Source: Acidobacteriota bacterium
GTDB lineage: Bacteria > Acidobacteriota > Blastocatellia > Pyrinomonadales > Pyrinomonadaceae
Assembly: GCA_019239425.1 (NCBI GenBank)
Contig: JAFAZX010000028.1
Coordinates: 62,001 to 126,000 of the forward strand
DNA length: 64,000 nt
Reading direction: 5' to 3'
Shown: positions 13,542-61,029 of the stretch, in pieces
Position numbering within the stretch: the stretch's first letter is position 1
Layout of the letters: every line of letters starts with the position of its first letter
The notes under the pieces: generated by a model
The model's database searches: none
Seen by the model: the letters and a program-made list of their open reading frames with translations, nothing else
Told to the model about the DNA's origin: nothing
Program-made: the position numbers and the translations under genes

Positions 13542-13623
<82 letters not shown>

Positions 13624-13627
13624 CCCT

Positions 13628-15334
13628 TCACATCCCCTTGTATTCAGGCCCGCCGCCGCCCTCGGGCGTGACCCAGTTGATGATCTGGTAGGGATCCATG
13701 ATGTCGCACGTCTTGCAGTGGACGCAGTTGGAGAAGTTGATCTGCAGCTTCCGCTGGCCCCCGCCGTCCTCGACCATCTCGTAGACGGCCGCCGGGCAGA
13801 AGCGCTGGCAGGGGTTGCCGTACTCCTCCGCGCAGCGCGTCGAGCAGATGTTAGTGTCGAGGACGTGCAGGTGCGCCGGCTGGTCTTCGTCGTGCGAGAC
13901 GGCCGCGTGGTAGACGTCCGTCACCTTGTTGAAGGTGAGCTTGCCGTCGAACTTTAGCTTGCCGTAGCGCTGCAGGATGTCGTCGCCGCGGTAGCCGTAG
14001 TCCTTGAGCTGCTTCATCGCCTCGTGCCCCGGCTCCGAACTCGCCCGGTCGAACAGGCCCCACGAGCGCCCGCCCGTGATGAACTGCAGCCCCGCGTTCG
14101 CCAGCCCCAGCCAGCGGCCGTGCCTGAAGGCCGCGTGGAAGTTGCGCACGCGCCGCAGCTCCTGCGTGATCCAGCTCTCGCGGATCAGCTGCCGGTAGCG
14201 CTTGAGCTGCTGCTTCGAATAGTCCTCTTTGAGTAAAGCCTCGAAGATGGCCTGCGCGGCGAGCATGCCGCTCTTGATGGCGGTGTGGATGCCCTTCAAC
14301 CTCTGCGCGTTGAGGAAGCCGGCCGAGTCGCCGACGAGCAGGAAGCCGTCGCCGTGGAACTGCGGGATGGCGTAGAAGCCCCCGGCCGCGATGGTCTTCG
14401 CGCCGTAGCGAATCATCCGCCCGCCTTCGAGCAGCTTCGCCACGTGCGGGTGCTCTTTGAACCTCTGGAACTCGGCGTGCGGGTCGAGCAGGGGGTCTTG
14501 ATAATCCAAACCCGTCACGTACCCGATATTCACGATGCGGTTCTGCATCCCGTAAATCCAACCGCCGCCGTACGTGTTCGCGTCCGAAGGGTAGCCGAGC
14601 GTGTGCGTCACGCGCCCCGCCGGGTAGCGGTCGTCGGGCAGTTCCCAAAGCTCTTTGACGCCGAGGCTGTAGACCTGCGGCTCGCGCCCTTCGGTCAGGC
14701 CCAGGCGGTTCGTCAACTGCTTGGTGAGTGACCCGCGCGGCCCCTCGCCGAGCACGGTCACCTTCGCGAGGATGTCCACGCCCGGCTCGAAGTTGGCCCT
14801 GCGCCTTCCCTCTTTGTCGATGCCCTTGTCGCCCGTGCGGACGCCGACGACACGGTCTTGCCCGTCGTAGAGCATCTCCGCGCCCGGGAACTCGGGGAAG
14901 ATGTTGACGCCGGCCTCCTCGCACTTCTCGCCGAGCCAGGCGGTGAGCTTGTTGAGCGAAACGATGTAGTAGCCGTGGTTCTTCAAAGGCGGAGGCGTGA
15001 CGGGCGACTTGATGGCGCGCGTCTTCGTGAGGTAGAGGAAGTAGTCCTCCTTCACCGGCGACTCGACCGGCGCGCCCTGTTCAAGAAAATCAGGAATTAA
15101 CTCTTTGAGCGCCTTCGGATCCATCACGGCGCCCGAGAGGATGTGCGAGCCGACCGAGGCGCCCTTCTCGATGACCGCGATCTGAATCTCGCCGAGCGAC
15201 TTACCCTTCCGTGTCCCCTTCCCTACCGCCTCGTTGTGCTCGGCGACCAGCCTTGAGAGGTGCAAGGCCCCGCTCAGGGACGCCGGCCCCGCCCCGACGA
15301 ACAGCACGTCCATCTCGATGCTTTCACGTTCCAT
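13628..15334 (-). CDS. Electron transfer flavoprotein-ubiquinone oxidoreductase
   Basis: 568 aa, the usual length. The N-terminal FAD dinucleotide-binding motif is VLFVGAGPASLSGAL (residues 10-24). The ubiquinone-binding middle domain includes GVGAR-like VVGVRTGDKG and GDSAGFLNAQRLKGIH. The C-terminal [4Fe-4S] domain has Cys in CPAAVYE and CVHCKTCD. It passes electrons from ETF (fatty-acid and amino-acid oxidation) to membrane quinone, which fits the nearby respiratory chain. ATG at 15332-15334 preferred to the adjoining GTG. Monocistronic here; no etfAB in the window. Confidence 0.94.
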   Translation of the reverse strand: MERESIEMDVLFVGAGPASLSGALHLSRLVAEHNEAVGKGTRKGKSLGEIQIAVIEKGASVGSHILSGAVMDPKALKELIPDFLEQGAPVESPVKEDYFLYLTKTRAIKSPVTPPPLKNHGYYIVSLNKLTAWLGEKCEEAGVNIFPEFPGAEMLYDGQDRVVGVRTGDKGIDKEGRRRANFEPGVDILAKVTVLGEGPRGSLTKQLTNRLGLTEGREPQVYSLGVKELWELPDDRYPAGRVTHTLGYPSDANTYGGGWIYGMQNRIVNIGYVTGLDYQDPLLDPHAEFQRFKEHPHVAKLLEGGRMIRYGAKTIAAGGFYAIPQFHGDGFLLVGDSAGFLNAQRLKGIHTAIKSGMLAAQAIFEALLKEDYSKQQLKRYRQLIRESWITQELRRVRNFHAAFRHGRWLGLANAGLQFITGGRSWGLFDRASSEPGHEAMKQLKDYGYRGDDILQRYGKLKFDGKLTFNKVTDVYHAAVSHDEDQPAHLHVLDTNICSTRCAEEYGNPCQRFCPAAVYEMVEDGGGQRKLQINFSNCVHCKTCDIMDPYQIINWVTPEGGGGPEYKGM

Positions 15335-20392: not shown

Positions 20393-22357
20393 ATGCCTCT
20401 GACTAAAAAGTTCTCTGCCGCCCCGAGTCTTTCTCTATTCGCCGCGGCCGCGCTGCTCGCGTCCATGCTCGCGCTGCTCTTCGCGGCGCAAGGCCCGCTC
20501 GGCGCGCGCGAGGCGTCCCTGCTCGCCGCCGGCTCGCTCGCGCTAATACTCTTACTGTATCTCCCCTTCCGCCACAAGCAGTCCGTCGCCGAAGTCCGGC
20601 GCGAAGTCGAGGAGCGCTTGGCGCTAGCGGAGTCCGCGGCCGAGCTGAACCTGCGCGCCGTCGAGTCGCTCGCCATCGCCATCGACGCCAAGGCGCAGAC
20701 GACGCACGGGCACGTGCGCCGCACGCAAGTCTACGCGATGGAGCTGGGGCGACTCCTGAACGTCAGCCAGGGCGAACTGGAGGCCCTGAAGGCGGCCGCG
20801 CTTCTACACGACATCGGGAACCTCGCGGTGCCCGGCTACATCCTGAACAAGCCCGGGCGACTCTCGCCGGCCGAGTTCGAGAAGATGAAGGTGCACACGA
20901 CGGTCGGCGGCGACATCGTCAGCCGCGTGGGCTTCCCCTTCCCCGTCGAGGACGCGGTCAGGTTTCACCACGAGCGCTGGGACGGCACGGGCTACCCGCG
21001 CGGCCTGAAGGGCGAGCGCATCCCGCTCGTCGCGCGCATCGTCGCGGCCGTGGACTTCTTCGACTCGACGCGCTGCGACCGCCCGTACCGCGCCGGCATG
21101 AAGCGCGAGCAGTCGCTCGCGCTCCTCAGGAGTAAGGCCGGCAAGGCGTTCGACCCCGTCGTCGTCGAGATGTTCGTTAAGCACGTCGAGAAGTTCGACG
21201 CGCTCCTTTCACCCGCAGACCTGTGCGAGCAGGTGGGCGAGGATGAGCCTAAAGAACTCCAGGCGGCGCCGCCCGCGCCGGAAGCACACACCTCCGGCGA
21301 GTGGTCGAACGGCTTCCGCTCCATCGCGCGCGCGCAGCGCGAGGTGTCGGCCCTGCACGAGCTGACGCAGGTGCTCGGCGCCTCGCTCAACCTGCAGGAC
21401 ACTTCGGCGCTCGTCGCCGCGCGCCTGCGCGAGATCGTCCCGTTCGACGCCTGCGTCATCTACGCGCTCGACGACCGGACGGGGCGCGCCGAGCCGGTCT
21501 TCGCCGCGGGCGAGTGGGCGGAGTTCTTCTCTTCACGCAGCGCCGCGGCCGGCGAAGGCATCACGGGCTGGGTCGTCGCCAACGCGCGCGGGATGTGCCA
21601 CACGCCGCCCGAGCTCGAACTGACGGGCGCGCCCGCGGACGTCGCTTCGCAGATTGAGGACTGCGTCTCCGCGCCGCTCGTGCGCGAGGACGGGGCGTTC
21701 GGCGCCGTCACGCTCTTCTCGAAGACCGCGGGCGCGTACACGTCCGAGCACCTGCGCCTGCTCGACTCGGTCTGCCTGCACACCTCCGGTGCCATCAACA
21801 ACGCTCTCGCGCACGAGCGCACGCGCGAGAGCGCGCTCACGGATCAACTGACGGGACTGCCGAACGCGCGCGCCCTCCAGCTCATGCTCGAACACCGCCT
21901 GGCCGAGTGCCGCCGCTACGAGGGCGAAGTCGTCTCCGTCCTGAGCGTCAACGTCGACGACTTCAAGGAGGTCAACGAGCAGTTCGGCCACGGCGTCGGC
22001 GACCGCGTGCTGGCCTCGCTCTCCGCGGTCGTCAAGGGCCAGCTCCGCCAGATGGACATGCTCGCGCGTTTCACGGGGGACGAGTTCCTCGCCGTCCTGC
22101 CCGGCGCCGACACGCGCGTCGCCGCGATGGTCGCCGAGCGCGTCCGCCACGCCGTCGAGTCGGAGGTCTTCAACGTCAAGACCGGCCGCAACATTCAAGT
22201 CTTGGTCAGCGCCGGCTCCGGCTCCTACCCCGCCGACGGCGAGACCGCGGACGAACTCCTCAAATCGGCCGCCCGCGCCATGCGCCGCGACAAACAGGCG
22301 CGCAGGCACCCCGCCACGTCCCCCGCCGCCGTCGTCCCCATCGACGCGTATCGGTAG
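20393..22357 (+). CDS. HD-GYP/GAF/GGDEF signalling protein
   Basis: About 654 aa from the ATG coding MPLTKKFS; a TTG at 20330 is possible. Two N-terminal membrane helices (about 10-60) precede an HD-GYP phosphodiesterase-type domain: LLHDIGNLAVP, FHHERWDGTGYPRGLKG. A GAF domain follows (about 310-470), then a diguanylate-cyclase domain whose active loop reads TGDEF rather than GGDEF, with DDFKEVNEQFGH metal ligands present. It thus combines potential c-di-GMP breakdown and synthesis modules in one membrane protein. The altered loop makes cyclase activity uncertain. The TAG stop is at the edge of repeat A3. Confidence 0.9.
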   Translation: MPLTKKFSAAPSLSLFAAAALLASMLALLFAAQGPLGAREASLLAAGSLALILLLYLPFRHKQSVAEVRREVEERLALAESAAELNLRAVESLAIAIDAKAQTTHGHVRRTQVYAMELGRLLNVSQGELEALKAAALLHDIGNLAVPGYILNKPGRLSPAEFEKMKVHTTVGGDIVSRVGFPFPVEDAVRFHHERWDGTGYPRGLKGERIPLVARIVAAVDFFDSTRCDRPYRAGMKREQSLALLRSKAGKAFDPVVVEMFVKHVEKFDALLSPADLCEQVGEDEPKELQAAPPAPEAHTSGEWSNGFRSIARAQREVSALHELTQVLGASLNLQDTSALVAARLREIVPFDACVIYALDDRTGRAEPVFAAGEWAEFFSSRSAAAGEGITGWVVANARGMCHTPPELELTGAPADVASQIEDCVSAPLVREDGAFGAVTLFSKTAGAYTSEHLRLLDSVCLHTSGAINNALAHERTRESALTDQLTGLPNARALQLMLEHRLAECRRYEGEVVSVLSVNVDDFKEVNEQFGHGVGDRVLASLSAVVKGQLRQMDMLARFTGDEFLAVLPGADTRVAAMVAERVRHAVESEVFNVKTGRNIQVLVSAGSGSYPADGETADELLKSAARAMRRDKQARRHPATSPAAVVPIDAYR

Positions 22358-22517
22358 TAGGCAGTAGGCAGATGGCAGTAGGCAGTTGAAGGCGAGAGTC
22401 TTTCAGAAACGGTTCTTAACGAACGGGGGCGGCGAGATTAGCAACTCGCCGCCCCCGTTCGCTTTGACCTCGTTTGCTTCCCGCTAACTGCCTACGGCCA
22501 ACTGTCTACTGCCTACT
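22356..22517. repeat. Heptad inverted repeat, family A (A3), enclosing a terminator
   Basis: Left arm 22356-22390 (GGCAGTA units), right arm 22485-22517. The right arm is more degenerate than in other copies. A separate 16-bp GC-rich hairpin occupies the centre. Confidence 0.82.
22421..22460. terminator. Strong GC-rich hairpin inside repeat A3
   Basis: A perfect 16-bp stem (22421-22436 with 22445-22460) with an 8-base loop, 64 bases after the HD-GYP/GGDEF stop and upstream of the pdhA promoter. Followed by a GCTTTG tract rather than a long T run, so intrinsic termination is likely but not certain. Confidence 0.7.
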
Positions 22518-22527
22518 TCCCCCCTTT

Positions 22528-22556
22528 TTGCCGCGCGGGTCAAAGTCGCGTATAAT
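22528..22556 (+). promoter_or_regulatory. Sigma-70-type promoter of pyruvate dehydrogenase operon
   Basis: TTGCCG (22528-22533), 17-base spacer, perfect TATAAT (22551-22556). It leaves a leader of about 110 bases before the pdhA ATG. Confidence 0.7.
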
Positions 22557-28495: not shown

Positions 28496-29404
28496 ATGCA
28501 GGACGTGAGTTCACAGGCCGCGGGCGCGCACGCCTCCGAGGCGAAGCTCAAAGCTTCGGCCGCGCGCCTCTCCGTCCTGGCCGCCGCCTTCCTCATCGCC
28601 CTCAAGACCGTGACGGGCCTGCTGACGGGTTCGATCAGCGTCTGGGCCTCGCTGCTCGACTCGGCGATGGACATCTTCGCGTCCGTCATCAACTACTACG
28701 CCGTGCGCGCCGCGGCCGTGCCGCCCGACGAAGACCACCGCTACGGCCACGGCAAGGCGGAGTCGCTCGCCGGCCTCTTCCAGTCCTTCGTCATCGGCGC
28801 GTCCGGCCTCTTCCTGATGTGGGAGGCGATCCGGCGCATCATCACGCCGCACCCGACCGCAGAGGAGTGGCTGGGCGTGGGCACGATGGCCGTCGCCTGC
28901 GGCGTGAGCGTCGCGCTCGTCAGGCGTCTCCGCCAGGTCGCGCGCAAGACCGACTCGCCCGCGCTAACGGCCGACGCCGCCCACTACATCACCGACGTCT
29001 ACACGAACGGCGCCGCGCTCTTCGCGCTCTTCTTCGTCGCGCTCACCGGCTGGACGCTGGCCGACCCCGTCGTCTCGCTCCTCATCTCCGGCTTCATCCT
29101 CTACTCCGCCTTCGAGGTGGCGCGCGACTCTGTGCACGTGCTGATGGACAGGCGACTCCCGCGCGCCATCGACGACAAGGTCGCGTCGGTCGTCGAGCGC
29201 TTCCGCGGGGAGGGCGTCCTCGGCTTCCACGACCTGCGCACGCGCCGCTCCGGCTCGCACAAGTTCATCGACCTCCACCTCGAAGTCGAGGCCGACCAGA
29301 CGCTCCAACAGGCGCACGACCTCACCGTCCGCGTCATCCGCGCCCTCCAGCAGGAGATACCCCGTTCGAGGGTGCAGATACACACAGACCCGGCCGGACA
29401 TTGA
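28496..29404 (+). CDS. Cation diffusion facilitator family transporter
   Basis: 302 aa. Six membrane helices in the first ~200 residues. Metal-site motifs are SLLDSAMDIFASVINYYAVRAA (helix 2, two Asp) and DAAHYITDVYTN (helix 5, His and Asp). YGHGKAESLAGLFQS lies between them. The cytosolic C-terminal domain (about 205-295) ends HDLTVRVIRAL. Exports zinc, iron or manganese in exchange for protons. Its 3' end borders the cassette array: an attC half-site remnant begins one base after its stop. Confidence 0.93.
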   Translation: MQDVSSQAAGAHASEAKLKASAARLSVLAAAFLIALKTVTGLLTGSISVWASLLDSAMDIFASVINYYAVRAAAVPPDEDHRYGHGKAESLAGLFQSFVIGASGLFLMWEAIRRIITPHPTAEEWLGVGTMAVACGVSVALVRRLRQVARKTDSPALTADAAHYITDVYTNGAALFALFFVALTGWTLADPVVSLLISGFILYSAFEVARDSVHVLMDRRLPRAIDDKVASVVERFRGEGVLGFHDLRTRRSGSHKFIDLHLEVEADQTLQQAHDLTVRVIRALQQEIPRSRVQIHTDPAGH

Positions 29405-29414
29405 GTTGTCAGGC
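29405..29414 (-). other. attC half-site remnant at cassette-array edge
   Basis: The plus strand reads GTTGTCAGGC, 9 of 10 identical to the R'' end of the best attC in the array (GTTGTTAGGC at 35001-35010). It lies 21 bases 3' of the 126-aa cassette gene, where an attC is expected, and immediately abuts the CDF gene. The rest of the site is missing. Confidence 0.5.
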
Positions 29415-29435
29415 GGCGCACCAACTTAAACCTCT

Positions 29436-29816
29436 TCAGCCTTCGGCGGACTCCTCCCACCCGAGTTTGCCCAAGGCATCCACGCGCCGCAGGTTCCTCT
29501 GAATGTAGAGCTTGGGGAATTCGAAATTCAGCCGCGCCTCGCGGCCGCCCGCGCGTACGAGCAGCGACAACTCAATGCGGAACTCCCCGTCGTCTCGCCA
29601 GATCGGCGCGTGCGCCCCGGGGGCGAGGTCGGTGACGTGCACGTCGGCGGCCTGACTGTGCCCGAAGTCGCCCCACTCGGTGCTGACCCGGTATAACGCC
29701 GCGGATTCGAGGGGCACGTCCCCGTCATTAATCAGGTAGAAGCGCCACTCGCCGGCGCCGACCTGCGGCTCTCGGCAGGCGGCCACGCGGCAGCGGATCC
29801 GCTCGCTTTCATTCAT
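29436..29816 (-). CDS. Hypothetical cassette protein, 126 aa
   Basis: No family recognised. Mostly beta-rich (EWRFYLINDGDVPLESAAL; FRIELSLLVRAGG), resembling a small beta-sandwich, with no signal peptide or membrane segment. It starts about 19 bases after the attC-like site at 29835 on the minus strand and is followed by an attC half-site. It therefore looks like the last cassette of the array. Confidence 0.6.
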   Translation of the reverse strand: MNESERIRCRVAACREPQVGAGEWRFYLINDGDVPLESAALYRVSTEWGDFGHSQAADVHVTDLAPGAHAPIWRDDGEFRIELSLLVRAGGREARLNFEFPKLYIQRNLRRVDALGKLGWEESAEG

Positions 29817-29834: not shown

Positions 29835-29938
29835 CCCTAACGCCCGACATTACCCGCCGCGCCGAGCCATTGAATATATTTGACAGGCGGCACGCCGCCG
29901 CTCGATTACGACCAGGTCAAGGTGTGCGCCACTTAGCC
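29835..29938 (-). other. attC-like recombination site 4 (degenerate)
   Basis: On the minus strand it runs from a GGCTAAG core to a GTTAGGG core, with inner arms that end CGGCGGGTAATGTCGGGC, matching the other sites. It starts within about 15 bases of the PhoD-like stop. The cores deviate from RYYYAAC/GTTRRRY by one base each. Confidence 0.6.
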
Positions 29939-29950
29939 GCAGGGGCACCG

Positions 29951-32023
29951 TCAGATCGACAGTCCGACCTCGCCTTCCAGAACTCGTTGCTCGAGGCGCG
30001 GCCGCTCGCCCGGTGCCCAAAGCTTGGCGACGTGCGCGACGCGGTAGCGTAGCGGCCCGCCGTCCGGGCTCGCGCTGCGGCTGATCGGCCGCGGGATGCA
30101 CACGAACTCGGTGCGCATCTCACCGCCGGTGAGGCGCACCTTCGCGTAGCCGTGGCCGCCCAGGTCGACGAACTCTAGTTGCGGCGCGAGCTGCGGGTTC
30201 GAGAGCGCGCGTGCGCGCTGGAGGTTGAAGCTCTTCGCGTATTCGAGGCAAGAGCGGACGCCGTGCCGGAGCAGCATGTTGTTGCTCCAGTCCGGCTTAC
30301 CGCCATCCGGCCGGTCGGCGAGGAACAATGCGCGGAGCGGGTGCTCCTTGCGTAAGCCATGCTCAAGAGCTTCCATCGTGCCCGGGCTTGCGAGCGACGC
30401 GCCGACGAAGCTCAATCCCACGGGCTCGAATTTCCGAGGCGGGAGTTCGGCCGCGGCATACCCCGCCCAGAAGCTGTGACGGTCTCCGGATACGATGGCG
30501 AAGCCGGTGATCTTCGCGTCGCGCACGAGGTCGTAAATCTCCTTGCGCTCGGCGTAGGCCGCTCCGTAGTCGTCAGTGCGGAAGATGGCGTAGGTATCCG
30601 CGGGCCACGGATTCTTGACCATTCCAGCGGGGAGATTTTGCGGGTCCGCGCGATGGTCGATAGCGCCGAGCGAATTGCCCCAGATTTTCCACGTCGCCTT
30701 CGATTTGCGCAGTTGGTCTTTGAACCATGCCTTCTGTTCGACGCCGAGGATGGTGCGCGGCGGCGTCTCCTTGCGCGGATTCGGAATGCGCGCGTCGCGG
30801 AAATGGAGTTCGGCGGGCGGCTTTCCGCCGTCGAAGGCGCGTCCCGCGTCGAGCGCGATTGTCGCCTCCTCGGAGAACATTCCGTTGAAGGCGGGGTCAT
30901 AGATTTTTCCAACCCCCTCGGCGTCAGTCGGGTCGTCGCCGCAGAAGCTGTGCTGGTCGGTGAGGAGGAGGTCGAGGTGCTTGCCGTAGCGGAACGCCCG
31001 GTAAGCGATCAGGCTGCGGATCGCGGTCAGATTGTTCGGCTCAAGCCCTAGTCCGTTCTCGTCCCACTTGTCGATCTTGACGTTCTTGACCGCGACCGCA
31101 CCGAATTCGGCAAGCGAGCCGCTCGGAGGCTGGACGCGAGCCGGGACGTATTCGAACCAGGCCTGGTTGGCGGCGACCTTGACGGTCTGACCGGGCTGCG
31201 GCTCGCCGCCCGCCTGGACGATGCTCTGTCGGCCCTGCCAAGAGAATTCGTGATTGTCCCAGATGGCGACGAACGGCCAGCGCGCGCGGGCATCCTGGAG
31301 GTCGGGGTCGGCGAGGTAGCCCTTGTACACGGCGCGATAGCCTTCGACGGTCAGCGGTATGTGGAATGACCTGGCGACCTTCAGGCCATCCGGGATGCGC
31401 GCAACCTCATAGATCGTGCGGTCGTAGCGTGTCTTCACCTCGTCGGGGTACTCGACCACCTCGTAGATGAAATCACCCAGGTGCAGAACGAAATTGAGTT
31501 GGTCGGCCGCCGGAGCGCGTTCATCTTCGTAAATCATCCGGCGATAGGCGTTGAGCTTGCCCTCGTTGACATCCTGACAGCTCACGAAGGCGAAGTTCAC
31601 AGGCCGCGCGTCGTTCGGCCGCGGCGCGGTGATGGTGCGGCCGATGCGGCTGCCGTTGCCGTCCGCGTCGGTGAATCGATACCAATAGACCCGCGCCGGC
31701 TTGAGCCCGCCGACCAGCACTCGGGCCGTCCAGTCGGTCGCCGGCGAAACCGGAGCGGGCGCCTGCGCCACGACCCGGCGGAACCGCTCGTCTTCGGCGA
31801 CTTCGACCGTCAGCATCTGGCGCTCGCTTTTCTCGAAGGGCCTGCGCGTCCACAGAATCACGCTGCCGGAGTCCGGGTCGCCCGATGCGACGCCTTCCGG
31901 GAACAGGTCGCGTCGCTCCCGCCAGTTTACTTTGGAACGCGCGCTCGCCGCCCCGCCCAACGCTAAGGCCGCGCCGCAGGCCGCGGCCTGTCTGATGAAT
32001 TCTCGCCGGTTGACTCTGCCCAT
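29951..32023 (-). CDS. PhoD-like alkaline phosphatase/phosphodiesterase
   Basis: 690 aa. A Tat signal (RREFIRQAAA, then a hydrophobic stretch ending ASA) sends it folded across the membrane. The PhoD N-terminal domain opens FPEGVASGDPDSGSVILWTR. The metallophosphatase domain shows NFAFVSCQDVNEG, VLHLGDFIYE, AIWDNHEFSW and ITGFAIVSGDRHSFWAGY, which supply the metal ligands. It should release phosphate from phosphodiesters outside the cytoplasm. It has a good GAGGAG ribosome site. It lies between attC-like sites, making it an unusually large cassette, with lower G+C than the chromosome around. Confidence 0.9.
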   Translation of the reverse strand: MGRVNRREFIRQAAACGAALALGGAASARSKVNWRERRDLFPEGVASGDPDSGSVILWTRRPFEKSERQMLTVEVAEDERFRRVVAQAPAPVSPATDWTARVLVGGLKPARVYWYRFTDADGNGSRIGRTITAPRPNDARPVNFAFVSCQDVNEGKLNAYRRMIYEDERAPAADQLNFVLHLGDFIYEVVEYPDEVKTRYDRTIYEVARIPDGLKVARSFHIPLTVEGYRAVYKGYLADPDLQDARARWPFVAIWDNHEFSWQGRQSIVQAGGEPQPGQTVKVAANQAWFEYVPARVQPPSGSLAEFGAVAVKNVKIDKWDENGLGLEPNNLTAIRSLIAYRAFRYGKHLDLLLTDQHSFCGDDPTDAEGVGKIYDPAFNGMFSEEATIALDAGRAFDGGKPPAELHFRDARIPNPRKETPPRTILGVEQKAWFKDQLRKSKATWKIWGNSLGAIDHRADPQNLPAGMVKNPWPADTYAIFRTDDYGAAYAERKEIYDLVRDAKITGFAIVSGDRHSFWAGYAAAELPPRKFEPVGLSFVGASLASPGTMEALEHGLRKEHPLRALFLADRPDGGKPDWSNNMLLRHGVRSCLEYAKSFNLQRARALSNPQLAPQLEFVDLGGHGYAKVRLTGGEMRTEFVCIPRPISRSASPDGGPLRYRVAHVAKLWAPGERPRLEQRVLEGEVGLSI

Positions 32024-32284
32024 ATCATTCTCCTCACTTCGACTCGGTCGCCGTGATGTCCAGACGCGTCGAAGCGGACGCGTGGATTGTTCCTCAATAC
32101 AAGTTCATCTAATTACGAGCCCGGTTCGATGAGGTGTGAGATCGAGTTGATTCGCAACACGCGCCTTTAAGGATAGTTCGTTCGCTTTGAATAAACTTTC
32201 GTTAGATTTAATCCATCTCTTGAGAAGCAGACCTTATACTTACAGCTTATTACGGGTGAGGACTTGCAAGGTTTCACCGGAACG
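32024..32284. other. Intergenic leader of the PhoD-like gene
   Basis: About 260 bases, much richer in A+T than the surrounding genes, between the PhoD-like start and attC-like site 5. No open frame of note. A promoter for the PhoD-like gene is likely here, but I could not single out a convincing -35/-10 pair. Confidence 0.4.
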
Positions 32285-32369
32285 AGTTGACGCTCGGCGT
32301 TACCCGCCAGCGAGATTAGATTTGATGAGAGGCGGCGTGTCGGAAGTCGAGTTCGTGCCGTGGTTCGGC
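32285..32369 (-). other. attC-like recombination site 5 (degenerate)
   Basis: The plus strand half at 32290-32307 matches the corresponding half of sites 2 and 3 in about 16 of 20 positions. The other half (GTGCCGTGGTTCGGCG, 32355-32370) matches ATGCCGTTGTTAGGCG of site 1 with few changes. It sits 11 bases after the stop of the VOC fragment, where a cassette attC belongs. Confidence 0.5.
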
Positions 32370-32379
32370 GGCGGGCGGC

Positions 32380-32475
32380 TCAGAGTTCCTGGCCGAACAT
32401 AATCCGGTGCCCGTCCGGAGTGCGCACGCCGAACTCGCGCATCCCCCAGGGCTTGTCTGCGAGACCCTGCATTCT
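32380..32475 (-). pseudogene. 3' fragment of a VOC/glyoxalase-family gene
   Basis: Thirty residues ending KPWGMREFGVRTPDGHR-IMFGQEL, then TGA. This is the C-terminal signature of vicinal-oxygen-chelate (glyoxalase/bleomycin-resistance) proteins. Upstream the frame meets a stop at about 32508, and the rest of the gene is absent. Too short to function. It appears to be the surviving 3' end of an older cassette that still carries its attC-like site. Confidence 0.65.
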
Positions 32476-32547
32476 ACCGCCATGCTGAGGACACGTGTGC
32501 AGTAGTCAATTACAATTTGATGAGAGATCCGCGAGCCATGCCAGATA

Positions 32548-33666
32548 TCAACTTCGCGGCGCGATGTAACTCCGTCGGGCTTTGATGACCATTTTGCCTT
32601 GCGATTTCTGTCGCGCGGGATCGATGTCGAGTTTCAATTTACGCGTCGTGCCGTCCCGCTTTTTGTTCGTCGAGACGAACGCCATGTTGTAGCGACTGCG
32701 CAGGTGATCGATCAGCGTTTGGAAGGTCGTGTCTAGCTTGTCAGGTCTGTCCGCGAGCACTTCGCCGCCGGTCTCGTTCGCCAAATGTTCCAGGTCCATG
32801 TAGTCGGCAGCGATAACTTTGTTCAAGCGAGTGGTAGCGTATTCGAGCGCATTGTCGACACGTCGGACCAGGACGTTGGGAATGATGGCGCAAACGACCG
32901 CCCCCGATTCGTAAACCGCGTTGGTGGCTTCTCGATTGGAAGGTCCGTTGGTGCAATCGAACAGAGTCGTCATGGACGTAATCACGATGATGACGCGACG
33001 TCCGGCCGGATTGCTCGCCTTGAGCATGTGCTCCGCGGCGTCCGCAAACATGATGTTGAAGCATTTCGCTTGGCTTACAGTTTTTGCCTGCGGTGGAATG
33101 TTCTCCAGCGCGTTCCAGAGCAGTATGCGGTTACGCGTGAACGGCTGAATTAGCTGAGCGGTATCGGTGAAGGACATCACCGCGACCTCATCGACAGGTT
33201 TGAGACGATCAATTGCTTCACGCGCGGCGCGATGTGCCTGGTAGCTCCAGACATCGTTCGGATGCGGACAGGTAGGCCCGCGATAGATGGCGACCACCAC
33301 CGAGAGCGGCAGCTCATCCTGGCTGAAGTGTGTAATCTCCTGTTTGATTCCATCTTCGTAAAGCAGGAAATCTTCTTTCTGCAAACCGCCGACGATGCGC
33401 GCTGTGTTCTTCTGCAGCACCAGCGCATCGATTTTGACGAGGTCGACATCGACCTTGACGACGTCCTCCGGCGACTCGGGGGTGGGCGTCGGCGCGGGCC
33501 TGGGCGGAAGCCGGTCCGCTTTTCGACCCTGGCGTCCGGTGTTCGCATTCAAGTTCTTGTCGGGCGTCTGCGAAGTGGCCGGGCTGCTTGGGTAGAAGAG
33601 CAGGGCCGCAAGGACGAGCGAGGTGACTAGAAACAGAGGCCGCAGGATGGATCGTTGATATTTCAT
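32548..33666 (-). CDS. VWFA-related acidobacterial domain protein
   Basis: 372 aa. Signal peptide (hydrophobic run ending PATSQ, about residue 33) and a Pro/Arg-rich linker. Then VKVDVDLVKIDALVLQ and LQKEDFLLYEDGIKQEI, the opening of the VWFA-related domain described in Acidobacteria (TIGR03436). The later VWA core has ELPLSVVVAIYRG in place of the usual DTSGS metal site, so metal binding is doubtful. Secreted, role unknown. Start chosen at the ATG preceded by AGAGGG. G+C is visibly lower than the chromosome, and the gene sits between attC-like sites. Confidence 0.85.
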   Translation of the reverse strand: MKYQRSILRPLFLVTSLVLAALLFYPSSPATSQTPDKNLNANTGRQGRKADRLPPRPAPTPTPESPEDVVKVDVDLVKIDALVLQKNTARIVGGLQKEDFLLYEDGIKQEITHFSQDELPLSVVVAIYRGPTCPHPNDVWSYQAHRAAREAIDRLKPVDEVAVMSFTDTAQLIQPFTRNRILLWNALENIPPQAKTVSQAKCFNIMFADAAEHMLKASNPAGRRVIIVITSMTTLFDCTNGPSNREATNAVYESGAVVCAIIPNVLVRRVDNALEYATTRLNKVIAADYMDLEHLANETGGEVLADRPDKLDTTFQTLIDHLRSRYNMAFVSTNKKRDGTTRKLKLDIDPARQKSQGKMVIKARRSYIAPRS

Positions 33667-33695
33667 TAGCCCTCTCATTCAGAGGCAGTTGAGCC

Positions 33696-33784
33696 GCCCA
33701 ACGCCCGGCATCACCCGCCGCGCGGCCCCATCAATTAACGTGAGAATCTTCGTGTCCGCAGTCGGGTGCATGCCGTTGTCGGGC
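33696..33784 (-). other. attC recombination site 3
   Basis: On the minus strand it runs from GCCCGAC (R'', one mismatch) through the arm AACGGCATGCACC to GGGTGATGCCGGGC and GTTGGGC (R', a perfect GTTRRRY). 89 bp, imperfect palindrome. The stop codon of the 165-aa gene lies within it. Confidence 0.8.
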
Positions 33785-34228
33785 GCGGCGTACGATGGTT
33801 ATATCCGGCTCGCCGACTGAGACAACATCGAGGATATGATTCTCGCAGACGATTTCGTAATGGTTAAGCTTGCCCGGATACTCGTCGGAGGCGAAGGTCG
33901 CAGTGCGGACGTAATCGAGGAAGTGGGACTTCGAGTAGACGCGGAATAAACGCCCGACGTACTCCTCAGACTTATCCTCTGGGGTGTACGACTCATTCCT
34001 TACGGAATAAGCCACATAACTGCCGAATAAGACTTCATAGGCATAACACGTATCATCGGAGATGATAGGGCGGGCGCCAGCTAAGACTACGTCGCCGATC
34101 TTCATCTCCTCGGGTTCGCTGCTGGCTCGTGCCTCTTCGATTACCAGCCTGAGCACATTATCTTCCGGCTCGCCAATCTCGGCGAGGTACAGGTATGCGT
34201 GCGCGTTTATTTGCTCAACCAGTTCCAT
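33731..34228 (-). CDS. Hypothetical cassette protein, 165 aa
   Basis: Start at the ATG coding MELVEQINAHAYLYL; the longer frame begins inside attC site 2. No domain recognised. A mixed alpha/beta soluble protein, acidic, with aromatic-rich CYAYEVLFGSYVAYSV and no signal peptide. The last ~17 residues (after TIVRRARQ) are encoded by attC site 3, showing that the original gene was capped by the recombination site. G+C well below the surrounding chromosome. Confidence 0.65.
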   Translation of the reverse strand: MELVEQINAHAYLYLAEIGEPEDNVLRLVIEEARASSEPEEMKIGDVVLAGARPIISDDTCYAYEVLFGSYVAYSVRNESYTPEDKSEEYVGRLFRVYSKSHFLDYVRTATFASDEYPGKLNHYEIVCENHILDVVSVGEPDITIVRRARQRHAPDCGHEDSHVN

Positions 34229-34239
34229 AACTTTAAAGC

Positions 34240-34329
34240 GCCCAACGCCCGGCATCACCCGCCGCCCAGAGCGAGTGGAGAAATTTGAAAGCTGCCGTGT
34301 CGCGGGTCGGGCGCATGCCGTTGTTAGCT
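34240..34329 (-). other. attC recombination site 2
   Basis: On the minus strand it runs AGCTAAC, AACGGCATGCGCC ... GGGTGATGCCGGGC, GTTGGGC. 90 bp with imperfectly paired arms. R' fits GTTRRRY exactly and R'' has one mismatch. The plus-strand outer 25 bases are almost identical to site 3. Confidence 0.85.
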
Positions 34330-34361
34330 GCGGCCCCCGGCCTGGCTGTATTCGCGGCCAG

Positions 34362-34892
34362 TCATCTCCTTCGGACGAACGAGAGCGGCTCGTTGACCGA
34401 TGGGTCTCCGAGAGTCAGCACCATCCTATACTCCGCCCCCTCGCGGTATAGCAACCCCCTCCCCTCCGCCTCCTGGTGCATGAGGTAGACCGCCCACGTG
34501 TCCTGCTGACGGTACAGGTTCCAACTCCCCCGCCACGAGGCGAGCTGTACCCGGGGGACACTCCTCGGGCTGAAGTATGGCACCCCCACCAACTCGAAGG
34601 AACCTTTCCCGAGGTCGAGGCGGGTGGCCGCGGGAGGCCAGGAGCTAAGCCCACCGAGGCGTGCCGCGGTGGCTTCGTCGGGAACCCACACGCCCGTCAA
34701 CTCCGTCTCCGCCGGCTTACCCGAAGGCGGCAGCGGGGCGACGCCCCGAGCGACGCCCTCAGCCGGGCCGCGCCCCTTCAAGCCGAGTATGCCTGGCAGC
34801 GAGTACACGGAGTAGACTAGGGCTACGCCGGTGGCACAGAGGAAGAAGATTCTCCCCGGGCTCAACTTAGCTGATTTACCATCGCCGTTCAT
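34362..34892 (-). CDS. Hypothetical membrane-anchored cassette protein, 176 aa
   Basis: ATG at 34892 with GGTGA upstream; an ATG at 34913 is also possible. One N-terminal membrane helix (about 12-35; FFLCATGVALVYSVYSLPG) and a Pro/Gly-rich linker precede a periplasmic-type beta domain (about 65-176) with LTGVWVPDE, GSWNLYRQQ and LTLGDPSVNEPLSFVRR. The pattern recalls small lipoprotein-like cassette proteins, but no named family is recognised. Confidence 0.65.
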   Translation of the reverse strand: MNGDGKSAKLSPGRIFFLCATGVALVYSVYSLPGILGLKGRGPAEGVARGVAPLPPSGKPAETELTGVWVPDEATAARLGGLSSWPPAATRLDLGKGSFELVGVPYFSPRSVPRVQLASWRGSWNLYRQQDTWAVYLMHQEAEGRGLLYREGAEYRMVLTLGDPSVNEPLSFVRRR

Positions 34893-34920
34893 CGGAAAGT
34901 CACCCACACACATTCGGAGC

Positions 34921-35010
34921 AGCTAACGCCCGGCATCAGCGGGCGCGCGGCCCCGTTGAGGAAACATGACAGGGTGAGTGTCCGCGCTCCGCCGCATGCC
35001 GTTGTTAGGC
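34921..35010 (-). other. attC recombination site 1 (best match)
   Basis: On the minus strand: GCCTAAC (R'', perfect RYYYAAC), arm AACGGCATGCGGCGG, a central spacer, then CCGCTGATGCCGGGC and GTTAGCT (R', one mismatch). 90 bp. The architecture and sequence are those of attC sites in environmental integrons. It begins 17 bases after the stop of the 150-aa gene. Confidence 0.9.
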
Positions 35011-35026
35011 GCGGCACTGATGGCAG

Positions 35027-35479
35027 TCAATTATCGAAGAAGAAGACTACCCGCACCGACCCAGCCCTCCCATGCTCGCGTAGTGTCGGAAGGAATCTCT
35101 CCACAAAATCTTGACAGACCTCTCCCTCGCTACGCCCTTCCTGAATAGCGCTCCGTCGCGACCAGTCATAAGACAGTAATTCGTCCGCCACAAGCCAGCT
35201 ATGGCTATGACCCTCCGGCCCCCACTCACGGCAGATCCGAGAGCCGATTTCACTGAGGTCGGACGGGATGCCCTTCGGCGGCGAGATCGGCCTGAGCTTG
35301 ATTGAGCCACCATTTCTGACATCTGCAAGAAGGGCGAAGAGGTAGTAATTACGTTCAGGGTAAGGCTCTTCCCACACAACCCACGACTCGCGCCCCTCTC
35401 CACAAATGCGATAAGGATGCGCGAACTTCCACATTGCCCCGTCGAAAGTCTCCACCCAGAGATGAATGTCGCAACCCAT
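35027..35479 (-). CDS. MGCDIH-type hypothetical protein (phage/cassette family)
   Basis: 150 aa starting MGCDIHLWVE, with NYYLFALLADVRNG, ISPPKGIPSDLSEI and WGPEGHSHSWL. This set of motifs recurs in hypothetical proteins of phages and bacterial accessory regions. Conserved His, Asp and Cys near the N-terminus suggest metal binding, unproven. No signal peptide. It is the first complete cassette, with a GTTAGGC core 34 bases upstream of its ATG and attC site 1 downstream. Confidence 0.75.
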   Translation of the reverse strand: MGCDIHLWVETFDGAMWKFAHPYRICGEGRESWVVWEEPYPERNYYLFALLADVRNGGSIKLRPISPPKGIPSDLSEIGSRICREWGPEGHSHSWLVADELLSYDWSRRSAIQEGRSEGEVCQDFVERFLPTLREHGRAGSVRVVFFFDN

Positions 35480-35512
35480 GGCAATCGATTAGTCCGACGA
35501 TATAAGGCTAGC

Positions 35513-35631
35513 GCCTAACTAATATTGTGCCGAATGTGTCGGCCTAAGTCCGCAATAGGGCGTGAAAAGCCGAACGTATCCGTCTAACTCCACAGTAGGG
35601 CATGAACAGCCGCATCGCTCGGCCTAACTCC
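35513..35631 (-). repeat. Tandem 40-bp repeat carrying attC-core-like heptamers
   Basis: Read on the minus strand there are two full 40-bp units and one partial. Each begins GGAGTTAG or GGACTTAG, with internal TTCGGCT and TTCA(T/C)GCCCTA. The unit starts give GTTAGGC, GTTAGAC and CTTAGGC. A further GTTAGGC (35513-35519) ends the block. The first two and the last fit the integron core GTTRRRY. No coding frame; it fills most of the gap between the first cassette gene and mutS. Confidence 0.75.
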
Positions 35632-35662
35632 GTAAGGAAACCCGCGTCGTACTCAATTTGTC

Positions 35663-38272
35663 TCAAGCCGTCTTGAACGACCTCGCCCCCTTCTCCTTCT
35701 CGCCTTCGGCCAGGCGGCGCAGCTCGAAGAGTTTCATGAGGGCCTCGACGGGGGCGAGCGAGTCTATGTCGGCGGCGAGGAGTTCTTCGACGATGCGCGC
35801 GCCGCGGCCCCAGGCTGAGGCGTCGAACTGTTCGAGCGCTTCGCCCGCGACCCTCTCGTCTTCCGTCCTGCCGGACTCGTATTCGCGCAGGAGTTCTTCG
35901 GCGCGGCGGACGACGGGCGCGGGCAGGCCCGCGAGCTTGGCGGCGTAGACGCCGTAGCTGCCTTCGGCGACGCCGGGCACGACGCGGTAGAGGAAGACGA
36001 GCTCGCCGTCGCGCTCCGCGATCTCGACGTGCAGGTTGCGCAGGCGCGGCAGCGTCTCGGAGAGCGCCGTCAGCTCGTGGTAGTGCGTGGCGAAGAGAGT
36101 CTTCGAGCGCAGGCGCGGGTGGTTGTGCAAGTATTCGAGGACGGCGCGCGCCACCGCCAGGCCGTCGTAGGTCGAGGTGCCGCGCCCGAGTTCGTCCAAA
36201 AGGACGAGCGAGCGCGGCGTGGCGTGGTGGAGGATGTGCGCCGTCTCCGTCATCTCCGTCATGAAGGTGGACTCGCCGCTGCCGATGCGGTCGTAGAGGC
36301 CGATGCGCGTGTAGACGCGGTCGGTGAGGCCGACCGTCGCCGCACGCGCGGGGACGAAACTCCCCGCCTGCGCCATGATGACGACGAGCGCCGCCTGCCT
36401 CAGGTACGTCGACTTGCCGGACATGTTCGGCCCCGTGATGAGCGCGATCTCCGGCGCGCCCGCGCCCCCGAGCTCGAGGTCGTTGGCGACGAACTCGCCC
36501 TCCTCGTTCAGCCTTTCGAGAACGGGGTGGCGCCCGCCGCGGATGTTGAGAACGGGTTCGTCGACGACCGCCGGCCGCACGTAGTTCCAGCGCGCCGCCG
36601 CCTGCGCGAGCGAGGCGACGGCGTCGAGGTGTGCGAGCGTCGAGGCGGCCGAGAGTATCTCTTCGCGCGCGCGGCCGATCTCGGCGCAGACCTGTCTGAA
36701 GATGCCCGCCTCAAGCTCCGTGATGCGCTCCTGCGCGTTGAGGACGAGCGACTCGTGCTCCTTCAGTTCCAGCGTGACGAAGCGCTCGGAGGCGGCGAGC
36801 GTCTGCTTGCGCGTGTAGCCGGCCGGGACGAGGTGGAGGTTCGGACGCGTAACCTCGATGAAGTAGCCGAAGACCTTGTTGTAGCCGACGCGCAGGCTCT
36901 TGATCCCCGTGCGCGCTCGCTCGCGCTGTTCCATCTCGGCGAGGAAGGTCTTGCCGTTCTTGAGGAGCGAGCGTAGAGAGTCCAGCTCTTCCGAGAAGCC
37001 TTCGCGGACGACGCCCGAGCCGTCGCCGCGCCGCGGCAGGTCGTCGTTGATGGCCGAGCGTATGCGACCGAGCACGCCCTCGCACGTCGGAAGCGAAGAG
37101 AGCAGCGCGCCGAACCTCGCGGCCTCGCGTTGCAGCAGGGCGCGCACGCGCGGCACGGCTTCGAGACTCTGCCTGATGGCTAAGACTTCCGAAGGCGTCG
37201 CCAGCCCGGCGCGAGCGCGGCCCGAGAGGCGTTCGAGGTCGTGAACGTTCTCCAGGGCGGCGGCGAGTTCGGCGCGGTCTTTGTCGTGCGCGGCGAACCA
37301 GCCGACGTGCTCCTGCCGCCGCGCGATCTCCGCGAGGTCGAGCAGGGGTTGTCGCAGCCAGCGGCGCAGCATGCGCCCGCCCATCGCCGTGCGCGTCTCG
37401 TCCAGAGTCGCCAGGAGCGAAGGCGCGCCGCCCGTACTGTCGAACAGCTCAAGGCTGCGGACGGCCTGCGCGTCGAGCACCATGTAGGACTCCGGGTTGT
37501 AGCTCGTCAGGCGCGTCAACTGTTCGGAGACGCCCGCCTGCGTCTCCGAAAGGTAGGTGATGACGGCGGCGGCGGCCGTGGCCGCGAGCGGCCAGCGCGA
37601 GAGGCCGAAGGGCGCGAGCGTGCGCGCGCCGAAGTGTCTTTGCAGGACTCGCTTGGCCTGTCCCGGCTCGAAGTTTTCGTCGGGGCGGCGCGTGATGAAG
37701 CCCGGGAGGTTCGAGGCGTGCGCGGCCACGCTCTTCGAAACGAGCACCTCGGAGGGCGCGATGCGTTGCAGCTCCGCGAGCGCGGCGTCGGCGTCGAGTT
37801 CCGTCGCCTGAAAGTCGCCGGTCGTCACGTCGGCGTAGGCCAGACCGGCGCGGCGGCCGTCCGTCGCGAAGGCCGCGAGATAGTTGTTGACCTTGCTCTG
37901 AAGCAGCCCGGTCTCTAAGACCGTGCCGGGCGTGACGACGCGCACCACGTCGCGCTCGATGAGGCCGCGCCCCGCCGCTTCGCCGCGGACGGGCGTCGCG
38001 GTCAACTGCTCGCAGATGGCGACGCGGTGGCCGCGCGAGATGAGCGTCGCGAGGTGTCGTTCGAGACTGTGGTGCGGCACGCCCGCGAGCGGCACGCGCA
38101 GGCCGCGCCCCATCGGCTTCGAGGTGAGCACGATGTCCAGCTCGCGCGCGAGCAGGCGCGCGTCGTCGTCGAATGCTTCGTAGAAGTCGCCGATGCGGAA
38201 GAGGAGGATGGCGTCGGCGTGGCGGCGCTTGATGTCGAGGTACTGCTTGCGGAGCGGCGTGGCCGTGTTCAT
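35663..38272 (-). CDS. mutS: DNA mismatch repair protein MutS
   Basis: 869 aa, normal MutS1 length, from the ATG that overlaps the upstream gene's stop. The mismatch-reading loop is present (LFRIGDFYEAF, residues ~22-32). Connector, core and clamp domains lead to the ATPase with Walker A TGPNMSGKSTYLRQ, Walker B LVLLDELGRGTSTYDG and the FATHYHEL switch. It binds mispairs and recruits MutL (not in the window). The longer frame to 38836 is a readthrough of another gene's region and is rejected. Confidence 0.96.
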   Translation of the reverse strand: MNTATPLRKQYLDIKRRHADAILLFRIGDFYEAFDDDARLLARELDIVLTSKPMGRGLRVPLAGVPHHSLERHLATLISRGHRVAICEQLTATPVRGEAAGRGLIERDVVRVVTPGTVLETGLLQSKVNNYLAAFATDGRRAGLAYADVTTGDFQATELDADAALAELQRIAPSEVLVSKSVAAHASNLPGFITRRPDENFEPGQAKRVLQRHFGARTLAPFGLSRWPLAATAAAAVITYLSETQAGVSEQLTRLTSYNPESYMVLDAQAVRSLELFDSTGGAPSLLATLDETRTAMGGRMLRRWLRQPLLDLAEIARRQEHVGWFAAHDKDRAELAAALENVHDLERLSGRARAGLATPSEVLAIRQSLEAVPRVRALLQREAARFGALLSSLPTCEGVLGRIRSAINDDLPRRGDGSGVVREGFSEELDSLRSLLKNGKTFLAEMEQRERARTGIKSLRVGYNKVFGYFIEVTRPNLHLVPAGYTRKQTLAASERFVTLELKEHESLVLNAQERITELEAGIFRQVCAEIGRAREEILSAASTLAHLDAVASLAQAAARWNYVRPAVVDEPVLNIRGGRHPVLERLNEEGEFVANDLELGGAGAPEIALITGPNMSGKSTYLRQAALVVIMAQAGSFVPARAATVGLTDRVYTRIGLYDRIGSGESTFMTEMTETAHILHHATPRSLVLLDELGRGTSTYDGLAVARAVLEYLHNHPRLRSKTLFATHYHELTALSETLPRLRNLHVEIAERDGELVFLYRVVPGVAEGSYGVYAAKLAGLPAPVVRRAEELLREYESGRTEDERVAGEALEQFDASAWGRGARIVEELLAADIDSLAPVEALMKLFELRRLAEGEKEKGARSFKTA

Positions 38273-43716: not shown

Positions 43717-43795
<79 letters not shown>

Positions 43796-43805
43796 CTCTT
43801 TTTCA

Positions 43806-43834
43806 TTGAGCGCCCATTTGAGTCATGCTAAAGT
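43806..43834 (+). promoter_or_regulatory. Sigma-70-type promoter for ferredoxin gene
   Basis: TTGAGC (43806-43811), 17-base spacer, TAAAGT (43829-43834) preceded by TGC (extended -10-like). About 46 bases before the ATG. Confidence 0.5.
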
Positions 43835-60646: not shown

Positions 60647-60898
60647 ATGTCTGTCAAACCGCACGTCCTCTTCTACACCAAACCCGGCTGCCACCTCTGC
60701 GAGGAGGCGCGCGCCGAGCTCGCCCGTTCGGGCTGTGAGGGACTCTACACCTTCGAAGAGGTGGACATTCTTTCAGACCCCGAACTAACCCGCCGCTACG
60801 GCTGGGACGTCCCCGTCATCCTCATCGACGGCGCGCACGCCTTCAAACACCGCCTCACCGCCGAGGAGTTCCGCAAGGCAATAAGAAGTAGGCAGTAG
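60647..60898 (+). CDS. Glutaredoxin-like protein
   Basis: 83 aa from the ATG with GGGAGGCG upstream. The thioredoxin-fold opening VLFYTKPGCHLCEEAR carries CHLC, and WDVPVILIDG has the cis-Pro. DUF836/glutaredoxin-like family. The last four residues (RSRQ) and TAG stop are read from repeat A5, so the original C-terminus was shorter or different. Soluble thiol-disulfide protein. Confidence 0.85.
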   Translation: MSVKPHVLFYTKPGCHLCEEARAELARSGCEGLYTFEEVDILSDPELTRRYGWDVPVILIDGAHAFKHRLTAEEFRKAIRSRQ

Positions 60899-61024
60899 GC
60901 AGATGGCAGCAGGCAGTAAAAAGGTTTTGGGTGTTAGGTGCTAGGTGCTGGGTAGGACAAGCCGCTTTCCCCAGCACCTAACACCCAGCACCCAACACCC
61001 TCTTCACCGCCTACTGCCTACTGC
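60887..61024. repeat. Heptad inverted repeat, family A (A5), with family B nested inside
   Basis: Outer arms 60887-60918 (AGTAGGC/AGATGGC units) and 61008-61024. The inner space holds a full family-B inverted repeat. The glutaredoxin stop lies in the left arm and the sugar dehydrogenase stop six bases beyond the right arm. Confidence 0.88.
60923..61000. repeat. Heptad inverted repeat, family B (B4), nested in A5
   Basis: Arms 60923-60953 and 60969-61000 of GGGTGTT/AGGTGCT units with a 15-base loop. It is wholly contained between the arms of A5. Confidence 0.88.
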
Positions 61025-61029
61025 TTTTC

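Follow-up and report, generated by a model that had tools for sequence, protein, structure and literature searches.

A gene-cassette island flanked by mutS and a CDF transporter gene

The DNA examined here, hereafter the window, is a stretch of 64,000 nucleotides from a draft genome of the Pyrinomonadaceae (assembly GCA_019239425.1; C92:62001-126000 of 7.45 Mb in 103 contigs, 94.6% complete), where C-numbers stand for contigs, G-numbers for the genomes of relatives and L-numbers for fetched loci. Between its mutS and CDF transporter genes lies an island of 6.26 kb on the minus strand, in which small genes without family matches and two large genes, one for a VWFA-related protein of 372 residues and one for a PhoD-like enzyme of 690, are arranged among attC-type recombination sites. 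An earlier, sequence-only reading had recognized the two large genes and had taken each for a gene cassette. Their identification stands: the VWFA-related protein matches TIGR03436 (127.3 bits versus a cut-off of 81.25) and the PhoD-like enzyme matches PF09423 (179.6 bits versus 27) and PF16655, all above the Pfam or NCBIfam cut-offs, such that the two resemble known TIGR03436 proteins and PhoD-like phosphatases. The latter gene differs from alkaline phosphatase PhoD in the strict sense, as its 169.6 bits with the equivalog model NF058638 lie far below the cut-off of 1000; its closest solved structure is 2yeq, alkaline phosphatase D. The family match thus points only to a PhoD-like enzyme, which probably carries a Tat-type export signal and for which the phosphate acquisition of the earlier reading would be one possible role. 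Pairwise ratios of nonsynonymous to synonymous substitution (dN/dS) against three homologues are 0.11-0.15 and point to purifying selection on the gene.

A search with a plain R''...R' regular expression picked up pairs that were largely due to chance and overlooked sites B and C, and covariance and profile models were used instead: R1, a covariance model built on the three strongest attC sites, which matches 67 places in this genome at E-values up to 10, most of them on C55 and in a stretch of C103 at about 73.3-89.6 kb; R2, a second attC model (48 matches, including the window's three and one C55 site present twice); and a profile of 45 rows (44 distinct sites) from which the three window rows were left out to avoid circularity. 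Applied to the window, the window-free profile picks out exactly five sites, at about 34.9, 34.2, 33.7, 32.3 and 29.9 kb, with E-values down to 1e-23 and no sixth match at an E-value of 1 or less, so the five sites are more than chance resemblances; a scan of the window with Rfam gave nothing at the gathering threshold. Sites A, B and C are sound. Site D (E 1.7e-11), which closes the VWFA segment, spans columns 3-88 of the 97 in the profile and keeps R'' with a degenerate R', and site E (E 8e-11) spans columns 21-92 only, the first 20 columns with the R''/L'' arm being absent; both sites flanking the PhoD gene are therefore damaged.

The first bases of a genuine cassette are complementary to its own R''. 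In the 28-site array of C103, which served as a control, 24 of the 27 neighboring pairs score 9-10 of 10 in this respect, against 119 of 757 non-adjacent pairs, and one true neighboring pair scores only 7, the commonest value among unrelated end pairs. In the window, cassettes 0 to 2 score 9, 9 and 8, the VWFA segment 9, the PhoD segment 7 and the last small gene 6. With three intact attC sites within 1.3 kb and no integron integrase beside them, the island classifies as a CALIN (cluster of attC sites lacking integron-integrases). From the attC sites and the matching ends, the ordinary small cassettes were probably laid down by integron recombination.

The island is a lineage-specific insertion, as mutS and the CDF gene are adjacent, with nothing of the kind between them, in six relatives. 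The order mutS, CDF, EamA is kept in G003, G002, G004, G020, G022 and G009, with a gap of 16-189 bp between mutS and CDF (10 loci fetched); in G001 and G014 mutS adjoins EamA with no match to CDF, the G016 locus stops near a contig edge, and G021 has mutS only. The two large genes are absent from this position in these six relatives; their presence there in a conserved context without attC would have spoken against the earlier reading. At the junction the last codons of CDF differ from those of the relatives, and both ends of the island lie at or within gene ends, most of the intergenic stretch being gone.

The VWFA-related and PhoD-like genes within the array

The VWFA-related gene starts just past attC C. 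At its other end it does not abut attC D: its stop codon is separated from the site by about 30 codons from the end of a VOC-type gene. The peptide that they encode can be aligned with the terminal part of PF00903 (E 0.072, below the cut-off) and reaches 72% identity to stretches encoded on plasmids, with two of the eight matches listed, both weaker ones, annotated as glyoxalase/VOC. Because these last codons of a VOC gene separate it from the attC site, the VWFA gene seems to be seated in a broken VOC cassette, and the proposal that it is itself a cassette survives only in the sense that it may be a passenger there.

In a tree of 24 proteins, the window's VWFA protein pairs with that of G032, which belongs to another genus (support 96/89), among other-genus copies and on a long end branch (0.61), apart from the same-genus pair G001/G003. 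A native second copy is found on this genome's C27, beside neighbors common to G003 and G001. These relationships support the capture of the window copy from another genus of the same family, much as had been proposed. Across nine 12-kb VWFA loci R2 gave four matches, none of which reads as attC, the model being less sensitive outside the genus (attC detected in 6 of 13 intI-bearing loci). The strongest of the four (29.6 bits, E 0.0001) lies beside the G003 copy within a GC-rich palindromic repeat; this repeat (L057 1190-1460; GGCAGATGCCATTTGCC...) is long and scores weakly with the attC model on both strands.

The PhoD segment is about 2.4 kb long and ends in a half site, attC E, rather than in a complete R''-L''-L'-R' site, and its start is not complementary to its own R''. 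Downstream of the gene, 29 bp of 3' flank (86% identity, stop codon included) are common to the window and to the attC-free copy in G003; in G003 this flank is the left arm of a whole hairpin, whereas in the window the right arm is gone and attC E comes next. Among the other close homologues whose flanks were folded, a comparable hairpin is seen in G025 and is missing from most. From these features the PhoD gene looks like an illegitimate insertion, and the view that it is a cassette is not supported, a decayed cassette being the less probable reading.

Close full-length copies of the PhoD gene occur in only 2 of 59 other relatives (G025, 84%; G003, 77%), in addition to a C-terminal fragment in G004, and no attC site was found at these three loci by R1 or R2. 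R2 applied to 53 of 80 PhoD loci from named genomes gave two weak matches only (E 0.17 and 0.59). For neither large gene, then, was a close homologue found beside a convincing attC site elsewhere, within the limited sensitivity of the models outside the genus. The fragment in G004 (L047 1198-1440) stands behind a frame that is presumably aminotransferase-like. In a tree of 34 PhoD proteins Acidobacteriota, Pseudomonadota, Verrucomicrobiota and Myxococcota are intermixed, with the window and G003 in different clades, so that this tree, like that of VWFA, does not follow the genus. The G003 gene (L046, 8207-10273) is a mosaic in which one stretch of 150 columns is 95% identical to the window and others are 65-75% identical. 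The viral contigs contained no match to the PhoD pattern, plasmids gave one match (33%), and a literature search found no paper linking phoD to integron gene cassettes.

We favor, with a probability of about 0.68, the explanation that this is a lineage-specific, integrase-less cassette island that starts at an attI-like repeat, and that both large genes came by a route other than cassette integration. In the order of events and with the types of recombination that we infer, the small cassettes of this island between mutS and the CDF gene would have been inserted by integron recombination; a VWFA gene from another genus of the family would have replaced, or been inserted into, the first part of a VOC cassette, of which the C-terminal end and the attC stayed behind; and illegitimate recombination would have placed the PhoD gene between attC D and the attC that follows, an event that carried along part of the gene's own 3' flank and deleted the R''/L'' arm of attC E, perhaps with a neighboring cassette. 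Several observations weigh against this account. With its 9 of 10 the VWFA segment satisfies the test of cassette ends and could thus have been mobile as a composite cassette, the VOC assignment concerns some 30 codons that score below the Pfam cut-off, a weak attC-model match lies in the palindromic repeat beside the G003 copy of VWFA, and R2 has a reduced sensitivity outside the genus. For PhoD, homology to attC D stops at the crossover point of that site, and the segment could thus begin as cassettes do; the flank shared with G003 is short (29 bp; over the 1.66 Mb of loci searched its E-value is about 0.001), the G003 gene is a mosaic, and most other close homologues have no such hairpin.

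That both genes are instead genuine oversized cassettes, placed by an integrase and followed by later decay of their attC sites, appears rather unlikely to us. The two genes do share the line and the orientation of the cassettes, D and E are relics of real attC sites, and the low score of the PhoD ends has its counterpart in one of the 27 true control pairs, besides the matching ends of the VWFA segment; yet that score is the one most often seen for unrelated ends, attC E lacks its whole first arm, the PhoD flank is shared with a copy that is not a cassette, a VOC gene end intervenes between VWFA and attC D, and the PhoD segment is twice as long as the widest spacing, about 1.2 kb, between sites of the C103 array. 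Somewhat less improbable, if still a minority view, is the assembly of the island elsewhere, PhoD and VWFA included, and its arrival between mutS and CDF as one block, a scenario compatible with the favored explanation as to how the genes joined the array. The absence of the entire island from six relatives and the position of its ends, with the loss of most of the intergenic stretch, agree with such a transfer, against which stands the failure to find a second copy of the PhoD gene in this genome or any locus with both genes among the relatives. There is hardly any room for the idea of a vertically inherited region with attC-like stretches by chance: nothing was found in its favor, and the empty site in six relatives, the E-values obtained with the window rows left out and the departure of both gene trees from the genus all contradict it. 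The sequence-only placement of each large gene between attC-like sites is thus borne out as to the five sites themselves, and has to be amended for their damage around PhoD and for the VOC end that lies between VWFA and attC D.

Table 1. Features of the island and its flanks (window coordinates unless a locus is given).
Feature	Position	Strand	Basis
mutS, conserved flank	35663..38272	-	PF00488 etc.; synteny
attI-like repeat, directly before first cassette	35512..35636	-	last core G^TT at the 35512-35519 end; R3 matches 35513-35567 and 35569-35636
Cassette 0 open reading frame, 150 aa, no family	35027..35479	-	start/end complementarity 9/10
attC A, intact	34917..35013	-	attC models and profile
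Cassette 1 open reading frame, 183 aa, no family	34362..34913	-	complementarity 9/10
attC B, intact	34236..34332	-	attC models and profile
Cassette 2 open reading frame, up to 175 aa, no family	33731..34258	-	complementarity 8/10; end overlaps attC C
attC C, intact	33692..33787	-	attC models and profile
VWFA-related protein, 372 aa	32548..33666	-	TIGR03436; tree
VOC/glyoxalase-type C-terminal remnant	32380..32472	-	PF00903 end, E 0.072, below cut-off; 72% to plasmid-encoded stretch
attC D, diverged	32281..32372	-	37.4 bits with R2; profile columns 3-88; R'' kept, R' degenerate
PhoD-like enzyme, 690 aa	29951..32023	-	PF09423, PF16655; dN/dS 0.11-0.15
Truncated PhoD 3' flank, hairpin left arm (complete in G003), stop codon included	29925..29953	-	29 bp, 86%; folds
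attC E, half site	29836..29907	-	L' and R' kept, R''/L'' arm absent; columns 21-92 of 97
Last small island open reading frame, 126 aa, no family	29436..29816	-	open reading frame list, family scans
CDF junction: possible leftover R'' of a terminal attC	29405..29419	-	by eye; complementarity 6/10; low confidence
CDF transporter gene, conserved flank	28496..29404	+	PF01545; last codons altered at junction
attI-like repeat copies	window 35512-35636; L049 854-954 and 3538-3638; L209 1987-2087; L210 1717-1817; L275-L294

The window also contains several pairs of short intergenic repeats of the AGTAGGCAGTAGGCAG type with their complements (2789-2837, 13543-13633, 22356-22528, 43717-43806 and 60873-61033).

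The attI-like repeat and the integrase

The first element of the island is an attI-like repeat that ends at a G^TT crossover directly before cassette 0. The same pre-array stretch recurs on C55 (twice), C15 and C18 of this genome with attC sites downstream of each, and this recurrence before other arrays rules out a chance motif; the idea that the repeat travelled as a circle opened at its core was set aside as well, since the homology reaches upstream of the core (by eye). R3, a model of the primary sequence of five copies including that of the window, matches 11 of 37 genomes with E-values allowed up to 0.05; with a stricter limit of 1e-6 it matches 9 of 119 genomes of the family, which represent this genus and three others. 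With E up to 0.005 and neighboring matches merged, R3 places number 21 in G002, G003, G004 and G022, of which 20 were fetched; at 18 of these an R2 attC site follows on the same strand 11-1250 bp downstream, some of these sites being weak matches (the lowest 25.6 bits). The independent count is 17 of 19, because C94 of G003 and this genome's C18, a source of R3, agree at every position (100%) over 2,043 bp. In that pair (L210 and L275) the identical stretch reaches a contig end in both drafts, which otherwise differ; the contig is possibly shared or misbinned, and sequence of more than one species may have been binned together. The contig that carries the window is distinct from G003 (mutS identity 91%).

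Two loci with repeats are common to several species and differ in their contents, namely C37 here with C63 of G003 and C67 of G002, and C50 of G003 with C65 of G002; the position is not strictly the same on C67, as the element there lies 2.8 kb from the shared flank, and on C65 a cassette apparently starts at an upstream repeat (by eye). R3 found no match at the relatives' empty mutS-CDF sites, from which it follows that the repeat reached the window locus with the island or later. It likewise gave nothing in the fetched arrays on C1, C2, C21, C24, C64, C102 and C103 of this genome and no copy in the relatives' intI loci tested. Several intI-adjacent sites of relatives do end in the same way, ..CGGTATAATANNTAG^TT (by eye).

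The neighbor of the window repeat is mutS and not intI. Nothing in this draft genome exceeds the TIGR02249 cut-off, and no intact intI was found in it, with 25 of 60 genomes (this one counted among the 60) having a match above that cut-off; at E 1e-30 G002 and G003 have no integrase match, and G001 has one that is cut by a contig end. The best integron-specific trace here is an N-terminal integrase fragment, in a frame of 144 residues, beside the large array of C103. The 28 attC sites of that array run away from the fragment, which is on the opposite strand (L048, C103:71000-90500), and the array is probably the main integron of the genome with a decayed intI. Two integrase matches with equal coordinates and score, G004:C299:18949-19890 and G028:C216:18949-19890, occur in two drafts and possibly represent one contig binned twice.

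We tentatively suggest, at somewhat less than even odds, that the orphan attI-like repeats, about 50-100 bp long and dispersed along the chromosome in this genus and a few relatives, are docking sites at which an integrase acting in trans inserts and exchanges cassettes, and that the islands are satellite integrons built on such repeats rather than relics of a single integron. No description of a repeated attI-like site was found in the literature searched, most subscription papers lying outside the search.

Relation to known integron systems

The island resembles CALINs in its several attC sites of the same orientation, in having no integrase gene nearby and in its location away from the main array; for Xanthomonas, CALINs have been described at several places on the chromosome. 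It differs from them in starting at a recurring attI-like repeat and in holding two insertion-like genes. The repeat, in turn, is like the attI of chromosomal integrons in its position directly before the first cassette, in its terminal G^TT core and in the resemblance of this core to the intI-adjacent sites of relatives (by eye), and unlike it in that no intI adjoins it, many copies exist per genome, and R3 has no match at the intI loci tested.

Two other known elements invite comparison. The attG sites of Loot et al. 2024, as described in PMC12901181, PMC12444791 and PMC11023631, are chromosomal places of cassette insertion outside the integron that diverge from attI and attC; the element here would likewise mark such a place, but is a conserved repeat of 50-100 bp with an attI-like core. 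In the Delta-attI-type gene cassettes of mobile integrons, as presented in PMC12901181, part of attI replaces the attC of a cassette. As in that presentation, attI-derived sequence occurs here away from intI and beside cassette genes; the difference is that the attI-like part precedes chromosomal arrays.

Large genes in integrase-less arrays are easily taken for cassette cargo, for which a position between attC sites is insufficient evidence, and simple tests of cassette status are offered by the complementarity of the ends, the coverage of the site profile, leftover gene ends and empty sites in relatives. If the docking sites are real, they would help explain the presence of integrase-less cassette clusters at scattered loci.

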